A stretch of DNA of 64,000 nucleotides from positions 1 to 64,000 of the forward strand of contig NZ_PUIC01000009.1 of the NCBI RefSeq assembly GCF_022750545.1. Reading direction: 5' to 3'. Origin of the DNA: Caulobacter sp. CCUG 60055. GTDB taxonomy: Bacteria; Pseudomonadota; Alphaproteobacteria; Caulobacterales; Caulobacteraceae. Positions 254-6,919 of the stretch are shown piece by piece. Numbering within the stretch: position 1 is the first letter of the stretch; every line of letters begins with the position of its first letter. The notes under the pieces are model-generated. The model made no database searches. It worked only from the letters and a program-made list of their open reading frames with translations, and was not told the origin of the DNA. The position numbers were made by a program, and so were the translations under genes.

Positions 254-1075
254 ATGTGGGGTTTTGTTCGCGCGCTCGCCGGAGCCCACGGCAAGAAGGT
301 GATTCAAGAGGTGACCGACGCCATCGTCGCCACCGATCCGACCACCGCGTCCGCCGCGCAACTCGAAGTGATGGAGCGCGACCTCGACAAGGTGGGCCGC
401 GAGCTGGCCAAGTTCCGCGCCGAAGCCGCGCGCGAGCAGTCCGAGGCCGACGCCGTCCAGTCCCGTTTCGCGCGCATGCGCGCGGCCGGCGACCAGTTGC
501 TGGCCCGCTACAACGCCGAGACCGACCCGGCCAAGAAGGCCGACCTGGAAAAGAGCCTCAACGGCCTGCTGACCACCCTGGAAGAGGTCAAGCACGAGCT
601 GGACCAGGAAGCGCAGGAGGCCGTCGACGCCAACAAGCTGGTGGCCGAGACCGAGGCCATCTACCAGGAGAAGGCGACGGCCCTGCGCGAGGCCAAGACC
701 TCGCTGAGCAAGGCGGCGCGCGAGCTGGAGCGGGCCAAGACCGCCCAGGAGCACGCCAACATGCAGGCCGAGCGCGCCGCGCAGATCGCCGGCCTGCGCG
801 ACAACGAGGTGGGCGGGCTGAACGCCGCCCTGACCGCCATGACCCGCAAGGCCGAGGAGGCCCGCGGCGACGCCGAGGCCAAGCGCCTGAAGGCCGCCGT
901 CCTGACCAAGGCCGACCACGGCAGCATGGACGACCCCAACGTGCTGGAGGCGCTGGCCTCGGTGCAGGGAACCTCGCCCAGCCTGCCGTTCGCCGATCGC
1001 CTGGCCGCCCTCGGCGGTCCTAAGCCGGCGCCCGCCCCCCTGCAGATCGAGCACAAAGACGGTCCCGGTGCGTAA
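254..1075 (+). CDS. PspA/IM30-like coiled-coil protein
   Basis: A 273-residue protein that is almost entirely charged, alanine-rich helix with heptad-like spacing from about residue 35 to 220, as in PspA/IM30 (ESCRT-III-like) membrane-stress proteins. It begins MWGFVRAL, a short amphipathic start similar to that of PspA-type proteins, and ends in a proline-rich tail. I chose the ATG at 254 because a GGAAAGG site precedes it and the upstream extension looks non-coding. It overlaps the next gene, a DUF1190 lipoprotein, by 8 bases, and an ATP-grasp enzyme follows. From established knowledge, E. coli carries the same mix (yjfJ with yjfM and yjfC). A role in envelope maintenance is inferred; family membership rests on composition and context rather than a diagnostic motif. 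Confidence 0.7.
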   Translation: MWGFVRALAGAHGKKVIQEVTDAIVATDPTTASAAQLEVMERDLDKVGRELAKFRAEAAREQSEADAVQSRFARMRAAGDQLLARYNAETDPAKKADLEKSLNGLLTTLEEVKHELDQEAQEAVDANKLVAETEAIYQEKATALREAKTSLSKAARELERAKTAQEHANMQAERAAQIAGLRDNEVGGLNAALTAMTRKAEEARGDAEAKRLKAAVLTKADHGSMDDPNVLEALASVQGTSPSLPFADRLAALGGPKPAPAPLQIEHKDGPGA

Positions 1076-1643
1076 AAGCAAAGCGATCCCGCTGGTCCTG
1101 ACCACCTCCGTCAGCGCCTGGGCGCTGGCGGCCTGTTCGGACCCGGCCCCCAAGAACCAGAACGTCGCCGCCCAGCCGCCCAAGGTCTACAAGACCCTGG
1201 CCGAGTGCAAGGCCGACTCCGGCAACGACCCGGCCGCCTGCGACCGGGCGTTCTCGGGCGCCGTCCAGGCCCAGGCCGCCACCGCACCGCACTACACCGC
1301 CAAGGCGCAGTGCGAGGCCGAGTTCGGCAGCGGCAACTGCGAGTCGCGGACCAACAGCGAGGGCGGCAGCTTCTTCATGCCGGCCATGATGGGCTTCATG
1401 GTCGGGCAGATGCTGGCCAACCGCGGCGGCGGCTCCTACGCCGGTCAGCCGGTCTACATCAACCGCGGCGGCGAGATGTTCTCGGGCGGCCGGCCGCTGC
1501 CGACCGCGGTTCCGGTCGGCGGGGCCTCCACCGGCGCCTATGCTCCGGCCCGCTCGACCAGCTCGACCTCCAGCTACAACTCGACGGTCTCCCGCGGCGG
1601 CTTCGGCGCGACGGCCTCGCGCATGGGCGGCTGCTGCGGCTGA
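1068..1643 (+). CDS. DUF1190 (YgiB/YjfM-like) lipoprotein
   Basis: A 191-residue predicted lipoprotein. It starts at GTG 1068, inside the end of the preceding gene, giving a basic N terminus, a hydrophobic stretch and a lipobox (LAAC) with the acceptor cysteine near residue 23. The mature part has paired cysteines in a repeated pattern (TLAECKAD, CDRAF, AQCEAEFGSGNCES), then Gly/Ser-rich segments, and ends GGCCG. This matches the DUF1190 family, which in enterobacteria is encoded next to the glutathionylspermidine-synthase-like YgiC/YjfC, just as here. Its biochemical role is unknown. The overlap with the upstream gene implies translational coupling. Confidence 0.8.
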   Translation: MRKSKAIPLVLTTSVSAWALAACSDPAPKNQNVAAQPPKVYKTLAECKADSGNDPAACDRAFSGAVQAQAATAPHYTAKAQCEAEFGSGNCESRTNSEGGSFFMPAMMGFMVGQMLANRGGGSYAGQPVYINRGGEMFSGGRPLPTAVPVGGASTGAYAPARSTSSTSSYNSTVSRGGFGATASRMGGCCG

Positions 1644-1659
1644 CATCTCCCTTTGGTCC

Positions 1660-1682
1660 GGCCCGCCCCTTTCGGGGCGGCC
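1660..1682 (+). terminator. Intercistronic GC hairpin
   Basis: Arms GGCCCGCCCC and CGGGGCGGCC flank a TTT loop between the DUF1190 gene and the ATP-grasp gene. No clean T-run follows directly (TTCCCGCCTTTT). It is therefore more likely an attenuator or mRNA-processing element than a full terminator. Confidence 0.4.
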
Positions 1683-1710
1683 TTCCCGCCTTTTCAAGGA
1701 TCGCGTCCCT

Positions 1711-2916
1711 ATGCGCCGCATCAAGATCGCCCCGCGTGACGGCTGGCAGGCCAAGGCCGAGGCGCTCGGCTTCACCTGGCACACCATCGACGGCCAGACC
1801 TACTGGGACGAGAGCGCCTATTGGCGTTTCACCTCCGACGAGGTCGACCACCTGGAGGCGGTGACCAACGAGGGCTATCAGATGGCCCTGGAGGCCATCG
1901 GCCACGTCATCGAGAACCGGCACCTGCCCCTGTTCGGCTATGACGAGGACACCGCCGCCCTGATCGAGAAGAGCTGGGAGGAGAGCGACGCGCTTCCCCA
2001 CCTCTATGGCCGGTTCGACCTCGCCTATGACGGGACCCAGGCCAGGATCCTGGAGTTCAACGCCGACACGCCGACCTCGCTCTACGAGGCCAGCGTCGTG
2101 CAATGGTACTGGCTCGAAGACCAGAAGATCGACGGCGCCGACCAGTTCAATTCGATCCACGACCGGCTCGTGCGGCGCATGAAGCAGATCGAGTTCGCCA
2201 ACCGGGTGAAGGCCCAGGGCGGGGCCGGCTGGGACCCGACCGTGCACGTCACCTGCGTCACCCCGCACGAGGAGGACCAGGGCACGGTCGCCTATATGGA
2301 GATGTGCGCGCGCGAGGCCGGGGTGGCGGTGCAGTTCACGCCGCTGACCGACATCGGCTGGAAAGAGGAAAGCTACAACGGCGAGGTCCAGGACGGCTGG
2401 TTCGTCGATCTCGACGAGAAGCGCATCCACACCCTGTTCAAGCTGGTCCCGTGGGAGTGGCTGCTGGCCGACCCCTTCGGCCAGAAACTGCGCGACGAGG
2501 TGATGAACGACCGCCTGACGGTGATCGAGCCGGCGTGGAAGATGCTGGCGGCCAACAAGCGGCTGCTGGCGACGATGTGGGAGCTCAATCCCTACCACCC
2601 CAGCCTGCTGCCGACCTTCACCACCGCCGCCCCGCTGGCCGGCAAGGCCTATGTCCGCAAGCCGGTCTGGGGCCGCGAGGGCCAGAACGTCACCATCTTC
2701 GCCGCCGACGGCTCGGTGGCCGAGGAAGTCGGCGGCGCCTATGGCGACAACCAGTACGTCTATCAGGAAAAGGCGCAGCTGATGGAGGCCGACGGCAACT
2801 ACGCGGTCATCGGCAGCTGGCTGATCGACGGCGAATCCGCCGGGATCGGCATCCGGGAATCGACCCACGTCATCACCGACAACATGGGCCGCTTCGTCCC
2901 GCACATGTTCGCCTGA
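1711..2916 (+). CDS. Glutathionylspermidine synthase-like ATP-grasp protein
   Basis: A 401-residue protein of the preATP-grasp/ATP-grasp synthetase domain family (YgiC/YjfC type), without the N-terminal amidase of bifunctional E. coli Gss. Signatures include LEFNADTPTSL at 114-124, KLVPWEW at 244-250, KPVWGREGQNV at 317-327 and GIGIRES near 378-384, which in the family form the ATP-Mg and substrate sites. Gss joins glutathione to spermidine, but YgiC-type proteins have no proven substrate, so ligase activity on a peptide or polyamine is inference. It lies 67 bases after the DUF1190 gene, probably in the same operon behind a hairpin. The ATG at 1711 begins at a conserved-looking N terminus (MRRIKIAPRDGW). 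Confidence 0.9.
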   Translation: MRRIKIAPRDGWQAKAEALGFTWHTIDGQTYWDESAYWRFTSDEVDHLEAVTNEGYQMALEAIGHVIENRHLPLFGYDEDTAALIEKSWEESDALPHLYGRFDLAYDGTQARILEFNADTPTSLYEASVVQWYWLEDQKIDGADQFNSIHDRLVRRMKQIEFANRVKAQGGAGWDPTVHVTCVTPHEEDQGTVAYMEMCAREAGVAVQFTPLTDIGWKEESYNGEVQDGWFVDLDEKRIHTLFKLVPWEWLLADPFGQKLRDEVMNDRLTVIEPAWKMLAANKRLLATMWELNPYHPSLLPTFTTAAPLAGKAYVRKPVWGREGQNVTIFAADGSVAEEVGGAYGDNQYVYQEKAQLMEADGNYAVIGSWLIDGESAGIGIRESTHVITDNMGRFVPHMFA

Positions 2917-2934: not shown

Positions 2935-3750
2935 TCAGGACACGTTCCGGCCCAGCGGATGCAGCAGCCGGTCCCAGCGGATCGCCGTCCAGGGCCGCGC
3001 CAGGGACGCGTCTGCGTTCCAGGAGAACAGGATCAGGTCGGCCCGCCCGACCAGGTCGTCGAACGGCACGAAACCCATGCCCTCCTCGGGCGGCAGGTAG
3101 CGGTCGAGCTCGGCGTTCCAGGGGCAGCGCGCCTCGCCGGGCGCGACCTCGCCGGGATCGAAACGGCTGTCGAGCGAGTTGTCGCGGTTGTCGCCCATCA
3201 TGAAATAGCAGCCGGCCGGCACGACATAGACGCCGGTGTTGCCGGCGGGCGTGCCCGGCCCGTAACTGTTGGTCAGATAGCTGCGGCCGTTCGGCAGGGT
3301 CTCCTTGAAGCGCGACACCCTGATGGTTTCACCGGACGGCCCCTCGGCGCGCAGGCTCGACACCGCCCGCCGCTCGACCGGCCGGCCGTTGAGCCGCAGC
3401 ACGCCGCCGACCACCTGCAGCCGGTCGCCGGGCAGGCCGACCAGGCGCTTGATGATGTCGTTGCGGCCGTCGCTCGGGCGCTTGAAGACGACGATGTCGC
3501 CGCGATGGGGCTCGCGCCCCATCAGCCGCCCTTCGCCCAGCGGCGGGCTGAACGGCGCCGAGTGCCGGCTCCAGCCATAGGCGAACTTGGACACCAGCAC
3601 GTAGTCGCCGACCAGCAGCGTCGGCTCCATCGATCCCGACGGAATGGTGAAGGGCTGACAGAGCACCACCCGGGGCACGAGGGCCAGGGTCAGGGCGAAG
3701 GCCATCGTCTTCACGAAACCGGCCAGTTCGCCGCCAAGCTTGGATCGCAT
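2935..3750 (-). CDS. lepB: Signal peptidase I
   Basis: Type I signal peptidase (271 aa), which removes signal peptides from Sec and Tat substrates at the periplasmic face. One N-terminal membrane segment (about residues 12-31) precedes the catalytic serine in PSGSMEPTLL (S40) and the general-base lysine in DIIKRLVGLPGD (K101). The late family box GDNRDNSLDSR is intact. Length is typical for alphaproteobacteria. The start is supported by a GGGAGG site just upstream. It converges on the ATP-grasp gene with an 18-base gap. In many alphaproteobacteria lepB sits with rnc and era; here it appears alone, so it may be a second copy. Confidence 0.96.
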   Translation of the reverse strand: MRSKLGGELAGFVKTMAFALTLALVPRVVLCQPFTIPSGSMEPTLLVGDYVLVSKFAYGWSRHSAPFSPPLGEGRLMGREPHRGDIVVFKRPSDGRNDIIKRLVGLPGDRLQVVGGVLRLNGRPVERRAVSSLRAEGPSGETIRVSRFKETLPNGRSYLTNSYGPGTPAGNTGVYVVPAGCYFMMGDNRDNSLDSRFDPGEVAPGEARCPWNAELDRYLPPEEGMGFVPFDDLVGRADLILFSWNADASLARPWTAIRWDRLLHPLGRNVS

Positions 3751-5062: not shown

Positions 5063-6919
5063 TTGATCGCCCTGCTTGCTGCCGCATCCCTGTTCGCGCC
5101 GGCGCCCGAGCTGCCGCGCCTGCCGGAAATCCGTCGCGACCCCCAGATCACCTATGTCGACCGCTCCGGCGCCGTGCTCGGCGTGCGCGGCGGCCGCTAC
5201 GCGCCGCCGACCGACCTGGCCAAGCTGCCGGCCTACGTGCCGGGCGCCTTCGTGGCCATCGAGGACCGCCGCTTCTATTCGCACACCGGTTTCGACGCCA
5301 TGGGCATCGCCCGGGCCATCGTCGCCGACCTGGGCCAGGGCCATGCGGCGCAGGGCGCCTCGACCATCACCCAGCAGCTGGCGCGCAACCTGTTCCTCAG
5401 CGCCGACCGCACCGTCGAACGCAAGGCGATGGAGCTGGTCTACGCCGTCCAGCTGGAGCGCACCTACACCAAGAAGCAGATCCTGGCGCTCTATCTCAGC
5501 CGCACCTATTTCGGCGCCGGGGCCTACGGGATCGAGGCGGCCTCGCAGCGGTACTTCAACAAGCCGGCCGCCAAGCTCACCGTCCGCGAGGCGGCGACCC
5601 TGGCCGGCATCCTGAAGTCTCCCACCAACTACAATCCGGCCGAAGAGCCGGAACGGTCCGCCCAGCGCACAGCCCTGGTCCTCGACGCCATGGCCGAGAC
5701 CGGCGTCATCACCCAGGCCCAGAAGGCCAAGGCCCTGGCCCAGCCGGCCAAGGTGTGGCGCGCCTCGCCCACCGCCCCCGCCCAGTACTTCATCGACTGG
5801 CTCGACGGCCAGACCCGCCAGATCGTCGGCCAGCCCAAGCAGGACCTCGTCGTCGAGACCACCCTCGACATGGCGGCCGAGACGGCCGCCGCCGAAGCCG
5901 CCAAGACCACGGTGGCCAAGCACGAGGCCCAGGGCGCGACCCAGGCCGCCGTGGTGGCGGTCGACGGCGCGGGCCGCATCCGCGCCATGGTCGGCGGCGT
6001 CGACTACGCCGCCAGCCCGTTCAACCGCGCCGTCGACGCCCACCGCCAGGCCGGTTCGGCCTGGAAGCCGTTCGTCTATCTGGCGGCGCTGGAGGCGGGG
6101 CGCACGCCCGACATGCCGGTGGTCGACGAGCCGGTCACCATCAACGGCTGGACGCCGCGCAACTACACCGAGGGCTATCTGGGCCAGATCACGCTCGAGC
6201 GCGCCCTCGCCCAGTCGATCAACACGGTGGCGGCGCGGCTGGCCGACGAGGTCGGGCGCGACGCCGTGGCCGGGGCCGCCAAGCGGATCGGCGTGGTCTC
6301 GCCGATCAACACCGACCCGGCCATGGCCCTCGGCACCACCCTGGTGACGCCGCTGGAGATGGCCCAGGCCTACGCCACCTTCTCCAACGGCGGCGTCCGG
6401 GCGCCGGCCTACGGGGTCGAGCGCATCCGCACCGGCGCCGGCGCCGTGGTCTATCAGCGCAAGGCCGCCCCGCCTGTCCAGGCGATCGCCAACCCGCCGC
6501 TCGGCGAACTGAACCGCATGCTGCGGACGGTCGTGGCCTCGGGCACCGGCGCCAAGGCGGCCATCCCCGGCTACGACATAGCCGGCAAGACCGGCACCAC
6601 CTCGGACTACAAGGACGCCTGGTTCTGCGGCTTCACCGGCGGCCTGACCGCCGTGGTGTGGATGGGGCGCGACGACGCCGCCCCCATGCGCAAGATCACC
6701 GGCGGGGCGGCCCCGGCCGAGGCCTGGCGCGGCTTCATGACCGCGGCGGTCCGCAAGCTGCCGGTCTCCGCCATTCCGCCGGGACCGCCCCCGCCCGCGC
6801 CGCCTCCGCCGCCGGCCGACATGGCCCCTGCGCTCCAGCAGCCAGGCCAGCCGCCGGCCCAGCCCGCCCCGGCCCAACCGGCTCCTGCTCAACCGGCCGC
6901 CAGCCAGCCGCCGTTCTGA
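5063..6919 (+). CDS. Class A penicillin-binding protein (PBP1A-type)
   Basis: A bifunctional peptidoglycan synthase (618 aa) that polymerises glycan strands and cross-links stem peptides in the periplasm. The GT51 transglycosylase part shows AIEDRRFYSH (E67), GASTITQQLARN and the RTVERK...LERTYTKKQILALYL helix. The transpeptidase part has SAWK (S332), SIN (S385) and KTGTTS (K509). The C-terminal 50 residues are a Pro/Ala/Gln-rich tail. Translation appears to start at TTG 5063 behind GGAG, because no ATG or GTG exists between there and the in-frame stop at 4988. This leaves an unusually short hydrophobic N terminus (IALLAAASLFAPAP) with almost no cytoplasmic tail. Confidence 0.93.
   Translation: MIALLAAASLFAPAPELPRLPEIRRDPQITYVDRSGAVLGVRGGRYAPPTDLAKLPAYVPGAFVAIEDRRFYSHTGFDAMGIARAIVADLGQGHAAQGASTITQQLARNLFLSADRTVERKAMELVYAVQLERTYTKKQILALYLSRTYFGAGAYGIEAASQRYFNKPAAKLTVREAATLAGILKSPTNYNPAEEPERSAQRTALVLDAMAETGVITQAQKAKALAQPAKVWRASPTAPAQYFIDWLDGQTRQIVGQPKQDLVVETTLDMAAETAAAEAAKTTVAKHEAQGATQAAVVAVDGAGRIRAMVGGVDYAASPFNRAVDAHRQAGSAWKPFVYLAALEAGRTPDMPVVDEPVTINGWTPRNYTEGYLGQITLERALAQSINTVAARLADEVGRDAVAGAAKRIGVVSPINTDPAMALGTTLVTPLEMAQAYATFSNGGVRAPAYGVERIRTGAGAVVYQRKAAPPVQAIANPPLGELNRMLRTVVASGTGAKAAIPGYDIAGKTGTTSDYKDAWFCGFTGGLTAVVWMGRDDAAPMRKITGGAAPAEAWRGFMTAAVRKLPVSAIPPGPPPPAPPPPPADMAPALQQPGQPPAQPAPAQPAPAQPAASQPPF

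Follow-up and report, generated by a model that had tools for sequence, protein, structure and literature searches.

The window analysed here, a stretch of 64,000 nucleotides (nt) forming the start of a contig (C9) of the Caulobacter sp. CCUG 60055 genome (4.09 Mb in 27 contigs), carries close to its beginning three genes on one strand, hereafter gene 1, gene 2 and gene 3, which encode a helical-hairpin protein, a DUF1190 lipoprotein and an ATP-grasp ligase, respectively (Table 1). The lipoprotein ends in a tail bearing the motif RGGFG, and such tails accompany ligases of the same type across several phyla. Working from this genomic link, with the chemistry inferred, we regard it as moderately likely that the C-terminus of the exported lipoprotein is the ligase's own substrate and would be capped with spermidine before export. 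More tentatively, the window may exemplify a widespread system that covalently caps the C-termini of envelope proteins with a polyamine in Proteobacteria, Bacteroidetes, Actinobacteria, Acidobacteria, Armatimonadetes and Verrucomicrobia; the RGGFG tail would be its address tag and YgiC/YjfC-type enzymes its ligases, DUF1190 being only the best-known tagged protein among many that have no Pfam family.

The ligase and the lipoprotein

A Pfam profile search matched gene 3 to PF03738 (GSP_synth; E 2.6e-133), covering residues 12-400 of 401, and found no CHAP amidase domain in it. Its nearest solved relatives are Escherichia coli YgiC (7uk8/7uka, E 1.4e-85) and YjfC (7uk6/7uk7, E 8.9e-72), while the PDB matches to trypanothione synthetase and to glutathionylspermidine synthetase (Gss) were far weaker. 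In the alignment, Gss residues R316, D318, E330, N332, E391, K498, K533 and R598 are retained in gene 3 and E392 is replaced by Asp; the corresponding gene 3 residues (R101, D103, E115, N117, E188, D189, K283, K317 and R382) line up with Gss and also, in the parts covered, with YgiC and YjfC. These positions we take to be the catalytic Mg/ATP and carboxylate residues. Gss S335, S337, C338, K607 and D610 are not matched in gene 3, the two serines being Thr in gene 3, YgiC and YjfC alike. Gene 3 thus shares the ATP-grasp fold and catalytic residues of Gss and trypanothione synthetase, but it differs from Gss in the missing amidase domain, and Gss-type loci lack tail proteins (see below). As judged from its sequence, gene 3 is a YgiC/YjfC-type ATP-grasp ligase and not a glutathionylspermidine synthetase; of the earlier note's description of a glutathionylspermidine-synthase-like ligase, the PF03738 ATP-grasp assignment stands and the Gss-type identity falls, given the lack of CHAP and the proximity to YgiC/YjfC.

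RefSeq names both YgiC and YjfC of E. coli peptide--spermidine ligase, and the statement that no substrate is established for this group is therefore out of date; Pederick et al. 2023 is the source that others cite for this activity. In the portions of text available, PMC10948618, PMC12270671 and PMC12568646 credit the ligation of peptide to spermidine by the two enzymes to that study, and the last of them, a 2025 paper, terms them bacterial peptidylpolyamine synthetases.

Gene 2 proved to be the cysteine-bearing DUF1190 lipoprotein that had been claimed, matching PF06693 with E 2.5e-34 (119.3 bits against a cut-off of 22) and carrying seven cysteines, at position 23 (in the lipobox LAAC) and at 47, 58, 82, 91, 189 and 190. 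When gene 2 was aligned with 10 relatives, no variation was seen at C47 and C58 and little at C82 and C91; R176, G178, F179 and G180, close to the C-terminus, were invariant too. An AlphaFold2 model built from a 10-sequence alignment is folded at about residues 39-112, with the predicted local distance difference test score (pLDDT) below 50 over residues 153-191 and a mean of 61, and a Foldseek search with the DUF1190 model returned no similar solved fold (best E 1.3). The motif, one of the few invariant stretches of the protein, thus probably sits in a disordered C-terminal tail.

The pairing of DUF1190 with the ligase is conserved as a unit. Among 398 Pseudomonadota genomes DUF1190 is found in 63, PF03738 in 91 and both in 61 (hypergeometric P 3e-46, kinship ignored); accordingly the proposed survey of co-occurrence came out far above chance, 61/63 DUF1190 genomes carrying PF03738 against 91/398 overall.

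Distribution of the RGGFG tail

In an early set of 37 DUF1190 entries, in which the window was counted three times, nearly all had the tail, E. coli YgiB and YjfM included. We then defined a strict motif, R[GS]G[FYL]G within the last 40 residues of an open frame, and scored it in a first sample of 80 named ligase loci. These are the top-ranking 80 out of 582 confirmed relatives, a sample near the window's ligase rather than a census, and span Proteobacteria, Bacteroidetes, Actinobacteria, Acidobacteria, Verrucomicrobia, Armatimonadetes and others. The frame immediately 5' of the ligase carried the motif in 66/80 loci, against 10/7733 other frames of the same loci, among which those in L149 and L163 appear to be true tails; in L149 the tail gene lies about 5 kb from the ligase. 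A relaxed test, framed after the strict misses had been viewed (looser expression, same-strand adjacency on either side, permitted last residue), raised the count to 73/80 loci against 31/6708 other frames. Of the seven loci that the relaxed test missed, L153 and L168 have a GGFG tail gene directly 3' of the ligase, which its limits on distance or last residue exclude, L156 has an EGFG form and L149 the distant gene just mentioned; in the other three, L121, L132 and L165, no tail was found. Ten tail proteins seemingly outside DUF1190 were scanned, with no Pfam family over the cut-off. A whole-genome scan for RGGFG codons was discarded as too loose to use.

Three Micromonospora loci have just 5' of the ligase a short RGGFG-tail protein with Cys-Gly-Gly (L173, 6634-6996; L175, 6634-6996; L172, 5601-5930), which has the look of a tagged protein stripped to its essentials or of a precursor peptide.

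The second sample consisted of the 398 Pseudomonadota genomes, whose 102 PF03738 places comprise 86 of YgiC type (E <=1e-130) and 14 weaker ones of Gss type, two fragments being dropped. The strict motif was found within 4.5 kb of 67/86 YgiC-type ligases; 12 of the 19 misses have a DUF1190 protein with a degenerate tail (SGGFG, RQGFG, RRGFG, RGGFT, etc.) and three more (L368, L387 and L400) a degenerate tail on a neighbouring protein. Relaxed same-strand adjacency gave 72/86 against 20/3644 other frames, and part of the shortfall comes from lipoprotein genes that do not adjoin the ligase on its strand, as in the Caulobacteraceae loci L241, L244, L377, L379 and L382.

The Gss-type places behaved differently. 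Amidase-sized frames occur in 12/14 of them, with CHAP in 10/10 of those tested, and no credible tail gene was present in the 12 amidase-sized loci (0/12), the matches in L417 and L421 being chance frames only 49-66 residues long. Of the 14 places, L415 alone departs from this pattern: its ligase is short and divergent, and an RGGFG-tailed DUF1190 gene lies beside it. That locus (G669:C160, 1960-5281) has the order DUF350, gene-1 family, short GSP_synth protein, DUF1190 with RGGFG tail, and can be viewed as the window's operon in variant form, rearranged and equipped with a ligase that belongs on the Gss-like side of the family.

Reciprocally, an RGGFG-type tail was found in none of five DUF1190 genes without an adjoining ligase (0/5; L295, L413, L428, L429 and L430), a count that leaves aside a sixth ligase-less DUF1190 match in G571; PF03738 matched nothing at all in genomes G309 and G735. 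Moreover, in 10 loci of the gene 1 family that have neither DUF1190 nor a ligase (L085-L088, L090-L095) the strict matches were only short unlabelled RGGLG/RSGLG frames, one each in L088 and L090, and the tail is retained in loci without DUF350, such as E. coli ygiBC and the Bacteroidetes loci. As gene-1/DUF350 loci without a ligase hold no comparable tail gene, the tail tracks the ligase and not DUF350. A second, tail-less DUF1190-like gene was seen in L300 (6669-7547), near a DUF350-DUF1190-ligase operon.

Within Caulobacteraceae, PF03738 is present in 52/119 genomes, and an RGGFG-tail protein in 17/18 loci viewed with wide flanks, L247 being the miss. Seven of these 18 (L241-L246 and L255) are divergent operon pairs in which DUF2491-DUF350-DUF1190 faces YjfI-YjfJ-ligase; other loci of the family have a short tail protein without a family name right 5' of the ligase. 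The tail ends in Cys-Cys-Gly in the window, in Asticcacaulis and in some relatives.

Tail composition and selection

For the shape of the tail we pooled 119 non-redundant sequences from both samples. Position four of the motif is Phe in 109/119, Ser, Thr or Gln usually precedes the motif, and the motif is followed by 7-13 residues in most tails and by 16-26 in a second group. Gly or Ser forms the C-terminus of 111/119; compared with the composition of the tails themselves, these two occupy the very end in 110/118 cases against 672/1440 (47%) within the tail (binomial P 2e-27, kinship ignored), which indicates that the C-terminal residue is itself under selection. Since the RGGFG of 110 sites is encoded by 57 different 15-mers, selection acts at the protein level. 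For the same reason we rejected conservation at the RNA level, such as a hairpin or ribosome site at the end of the lipoprotein gene; furthermore, the tail gene is not always 5' of the ligase, as some Caulobacteraceae operons, L153, L168 and L171 illustrate.

A hydrophobic stretch occurs in 105/119 tail proteins and a lipobox near it in 78/119; therefore the tail sits on exported, membrane-anchored proteins. The bodies of these proteins vary widely in length, and 112/119 fall into one large single-linkage cluster, so the idea of unrelated bodies joined only by the tail was dropped in favour of one very diverse group or of linkage by low complexity.

Gene 1 and its relation to PspA

The earlier note had described gene 1 as PspA/IM30-like, a description that our searches did not bear out. 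Gene 1 had no family over the cut-off in Pfam or NCBIfam and no match to PF04012 (PspA), whose best match in the genome (E 0.022) is at another place, none being over the cut-off; a PDB search with an 8-sequence gene 1 profile returned no PspA or Vipp1 chain and no other relative, and hhalign against PspA and YjfJ gave a probability of 6-32% with a weak best P of 5e-4, in the C-terminal half only. No profile search thus placed gene 1 in PspA. A single-sequence AlphaFold2 model (mean pLDDT 77) consists of a short helix at residues 6-26 and of helices at 34-88 and 92-221; VIA-align superposed PspA (4whe) on it with Z 11.3 over 132 residues (root-mean-square deviation 2.2), a score with which unrelated helical proteins tie, so that the PspA and Vipp1 rows of that comparison, level with unrelated helical hairpins, are no proof of absence either.

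The gene 1 family itself is real, eight members aligning end to end, and it occurs in 14/230 alphaproteobacterial genomes and weakly in a few other Pseudomonadota (8/224 in all, two at E ~1e-3). Its loci read DUF350-gene 1-DUF1190-ligase (L055 and L060, the two closest, with DUF350 directly 5'; the window, without DUF350) or DUF2491-DUF350-gene 1, while L085 and L093-L095 have the family with none of DUF350, DUF2491, DUF1190 or ligase as neighbours. In L086 (2419-4965) and L092 (3343-4992) DUF2491 lies at the C-terminal end of frames of 849 and 550 amino acids (stop to stop), either a fusion or an unrecognised N-terminal part.

No locus holds both the gene 1 family and YjfJ, among 33 loci entries with the former and 40 with the latter (overlapping fetches counted apart). 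We regard gene 1 as standing in for YjfJ and perhaps as a very diverged relative of it; the equation of the trio with yjfJ/yjfM/yjfC is right for the DUF1190-ligase pair and is not supported for gene 1 as YjfJ. That gene 1 is nevertheless a true PspA/IM30 protein, and the operon the published PspA-polyamine operon minus some genes, is a doubtful proposition, compatible with capping of the tail: the N-terminal helix and long hairpin of the model, the weak C-terminal alignment and the common neighbours DUF350 and DUF2491 speak for it, against the missing PF04012 match, the tied Z and the lack of any PDB relative by family profile.

Proposed mechanism and alternatives

We propose that the cytosolic ligase encoded by gene 3 would recognise RGGFG in the disordered tail of the lipoprotein encoded next to it and, with ATP, would couple the C-terminal carboxylate of the tail to an amino group of spermidine or of a similar polyamine. 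The capped lipoprotein would then be exported and anchored via its N-terminal cysteine, displaying a positively charged polyamine tail in the envelope, where the cap could form a bridge to lipopolysaccharide or peptidoglycan, protect against proteases or serve as a signal. Gene 1 would take the place held in related operons by the PspA-like YjfJ, possibly at the inner membrane with DUF350. We take the tail to be the ligase's own substrate because of the type of reaction reported for YgiC/YjfC, the conserved tail with its selected last residue, the loss of the tail where the ligase is missing and its absence beside Gss. The role of substrate, the modification before export and any benefit to the envelope are all inferred, and modification of the lipoprotein with polyamine by the ATP-grasp enzyme, suggested in the earlier note, survives on these terms as the best reading.

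The site suggested there does not survive so well. Modification of the repeated cysteines is improbable, as the feature tracking the ligase is the C-terminal RGGFG tail and most tails end in Gly or Ser; cysteine modification was ranked second as a main idea, only a minority of tails containing cysteine (the window, Asticcacaulis and a few relatives, ending Cys-Cys-Gly). In those, addition of spermidine to the tail would give a Cys-Gly-spermidine end as in glutathionylspermidine.

Several points weigh against capping of the tail. Modification is deduced from genomics; a cytosolic ATP-dependent ligase and a tail that ends up outside demand that it precede export; and the last residue varies (Gly or Ser, at times Glu, Ala or Thr), so a tolerant active site would be needed. 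The strict motif is missing at 14/80 and 19/86 ligase loci, most of which have degenerate tails, as judged post hoc, and no tail was found in L121 (at a contig edge), L132 and L165 of the first sample or in L359, L366, L406 and L412 of the second. The Gly/Ser-rich tails align weakly outside the motif, and the five DUF1190 genes without a ligase are few, weak and divergent matches, which makes that control suggestive rather than decisive.

Some of these observations could be read otherwise. RGGFG might recruit or regulate the ligase or another partner while some other peptide is the enzyme's substrate; binding by itself can keep a linear motif conserved, and the spacing from motif to end is variable (mostly 7-26 residues), but we consider this unlikely, because a docking motif has no need of last residues selected beyond the tail composition and because this class of enzymes joins carboxylates to amines. 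Alternatively the ligase would modify the tail and a protease would free a small peptidyl-spermidine, the lipoprotein being the precursor of a metabolite, much as happens with ribosomally synthesised and modified peptides. The predicted disorder of the tail, the bodies of such varied length and the short tail proteins with little beyond anchor and tail (L173, L175 and L152) fit this scheme, which nonetheless seems to us quite unlikely, the DUF1190 body with its folded part and conserved cysteines being unlike a throwaway leader and a protease not having been noticed as a steady neighbour, though no systematic search for one was made. Finally, that the tail serves sorting, interaction with DUF350 or envelope assembly, the ligase co-occurring through a shared process, is improbable in spite of the exported nature of the tail proteins and of DUF350 as a frequent neighbour, since the tail tracks the ligase, persists without DUF350 and has no comparable gene in DUF350-coil loci lacking a ligase.

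Relation to known systems

E. coli ygiBC has, like the window, DUF1190 (YgiB) followed by the ligase (YgiC); YgiB carries an RGGFG tail finishing MGG, and the stretch viewed around ygiBC holds no PspA gene. The window differs in having gene 1 in front and in a tail that is shorter after the motif and ends Cys-Cys-Gly. E. coli yjfIJKLMC likewise places DUF1190 yjfM (tail RGGYG) before the ligase yjfC; unlike it, the window lacks yjfI, yjfK and yjfL alongside, and the profile comparison does not assign gene 1 to YjfJ. According to the accessible parts of PMC4850422 and PMC2731931, ygiB and ygiC lie behind tolC in E. coli and are listed together with it in expression data.

The third group of CesT/Tir-PspA polyamine operons (mSystems 2024, PMC11237479) shares with the window an ATP-grasp peptide ligase, a DUF1190 lipoprotein and a link to polyamines. 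As far as the available text of that paper goes, it associates PspA, DUF350, DUF1190, DUF2491 and the ligase, calls DUF1190 metal-chelating, proposes polyamine monitoring and does not mention a C-terminal tail or a lipoprotein substrate; the operon of the window is thus only partly uncharacterised, a related one having been described there. An RGGFG tail as ligase partner goes unmentioned in the parts available of PMC11237479, PMC10948618, PMC12270671, PMC12568646, PMC4850422 and PMC2731931, a coverage that does not extend to Li 2019, an amidoligase paper or Pederick 2023, which may name or exclude the tail substrate. As far as our searches show, the tail, its cross-phylum link to YgiC-type ligases, the contrast with Gss and the gene 1 family are new.

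No natural peptide for YgiC or YjfC is named in the portions of literature covered. For this role the tail is a precise, gene-encoded candidate, and a test in E. coli K-12 would involve just two proteins, YgiB and YjfM. Capping of the tail, if true, would define a bacterial protein modification by polyamine, with DUF1190 proteins and many short unnamed lipoproteins as targets, would help to explain why polyamine enzymes recur next to envelope-stress genes, and would set YgiC-type ligases, with a tagged protein partner, apart from Gss-type enzymes, with a free thiol metabolite.

Organization of the locus

The three genes are closely spaced or overlapping, as had been described (Table 1), with an overlap of 8 nt between gene 1 and gene 2 and a gap of 67 nt between gene 2 and gene 3.

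Table 1. Features at the start of the window and their proposed assignments
Feature	Positions	Strand	Description
Gene 1	254-1075	+	Open reading frame (ORF), 273 amino acids; helical-hairpin protein of a family without a name
Gene 2	1068-1643	+	ORF, 191 amino acids, GTG start; DUF1190 lipoprotein
Gene 2 C-terminal tail, residues 176-191	1593-1640	+	RGGFG followed by 11 residues, the last three being Cys-Cys-Gly; putative recognition site (motif) and acceptor (C-terminal carboxylate)
Gene 3	1711-2916	+	ORF, 401 amino acids; predicted YgiC/YjfC-type ATP-grasp peptide--spermidine ligase, without amidase domain
Signal peptidase I gene	2935-3750	-	Convergent with the ligase gene, 18 nt away

The contig starts 253 nt 5' of gene 1, and these 253 nt, all that the contig offers there, hold neither DUF350 nor the dyad of DUF2170 (YjfI) and PspA; the sole PF03994 (DUF350) match of the genome is on another contig (C3:280645). 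On the other side the three genes seem to be a unit of their own, since the convergent signal peptidase I gene comes after the ligase. The promoter scan called no sigma-70-like promoter, and no terminator was called in the gap between gene 2 and gene 3. That gap holds a GC-rich hairpin (1660-1682), no stronger than in shuffled sequences (z -1.28), which could set the ratio of substrate to enzyme. Farther along, near the three-gene unit, a gene for a PBP1A/PbpC-like transglycosylase-transpeptidase is found at 5063-6919 on the plus strand.

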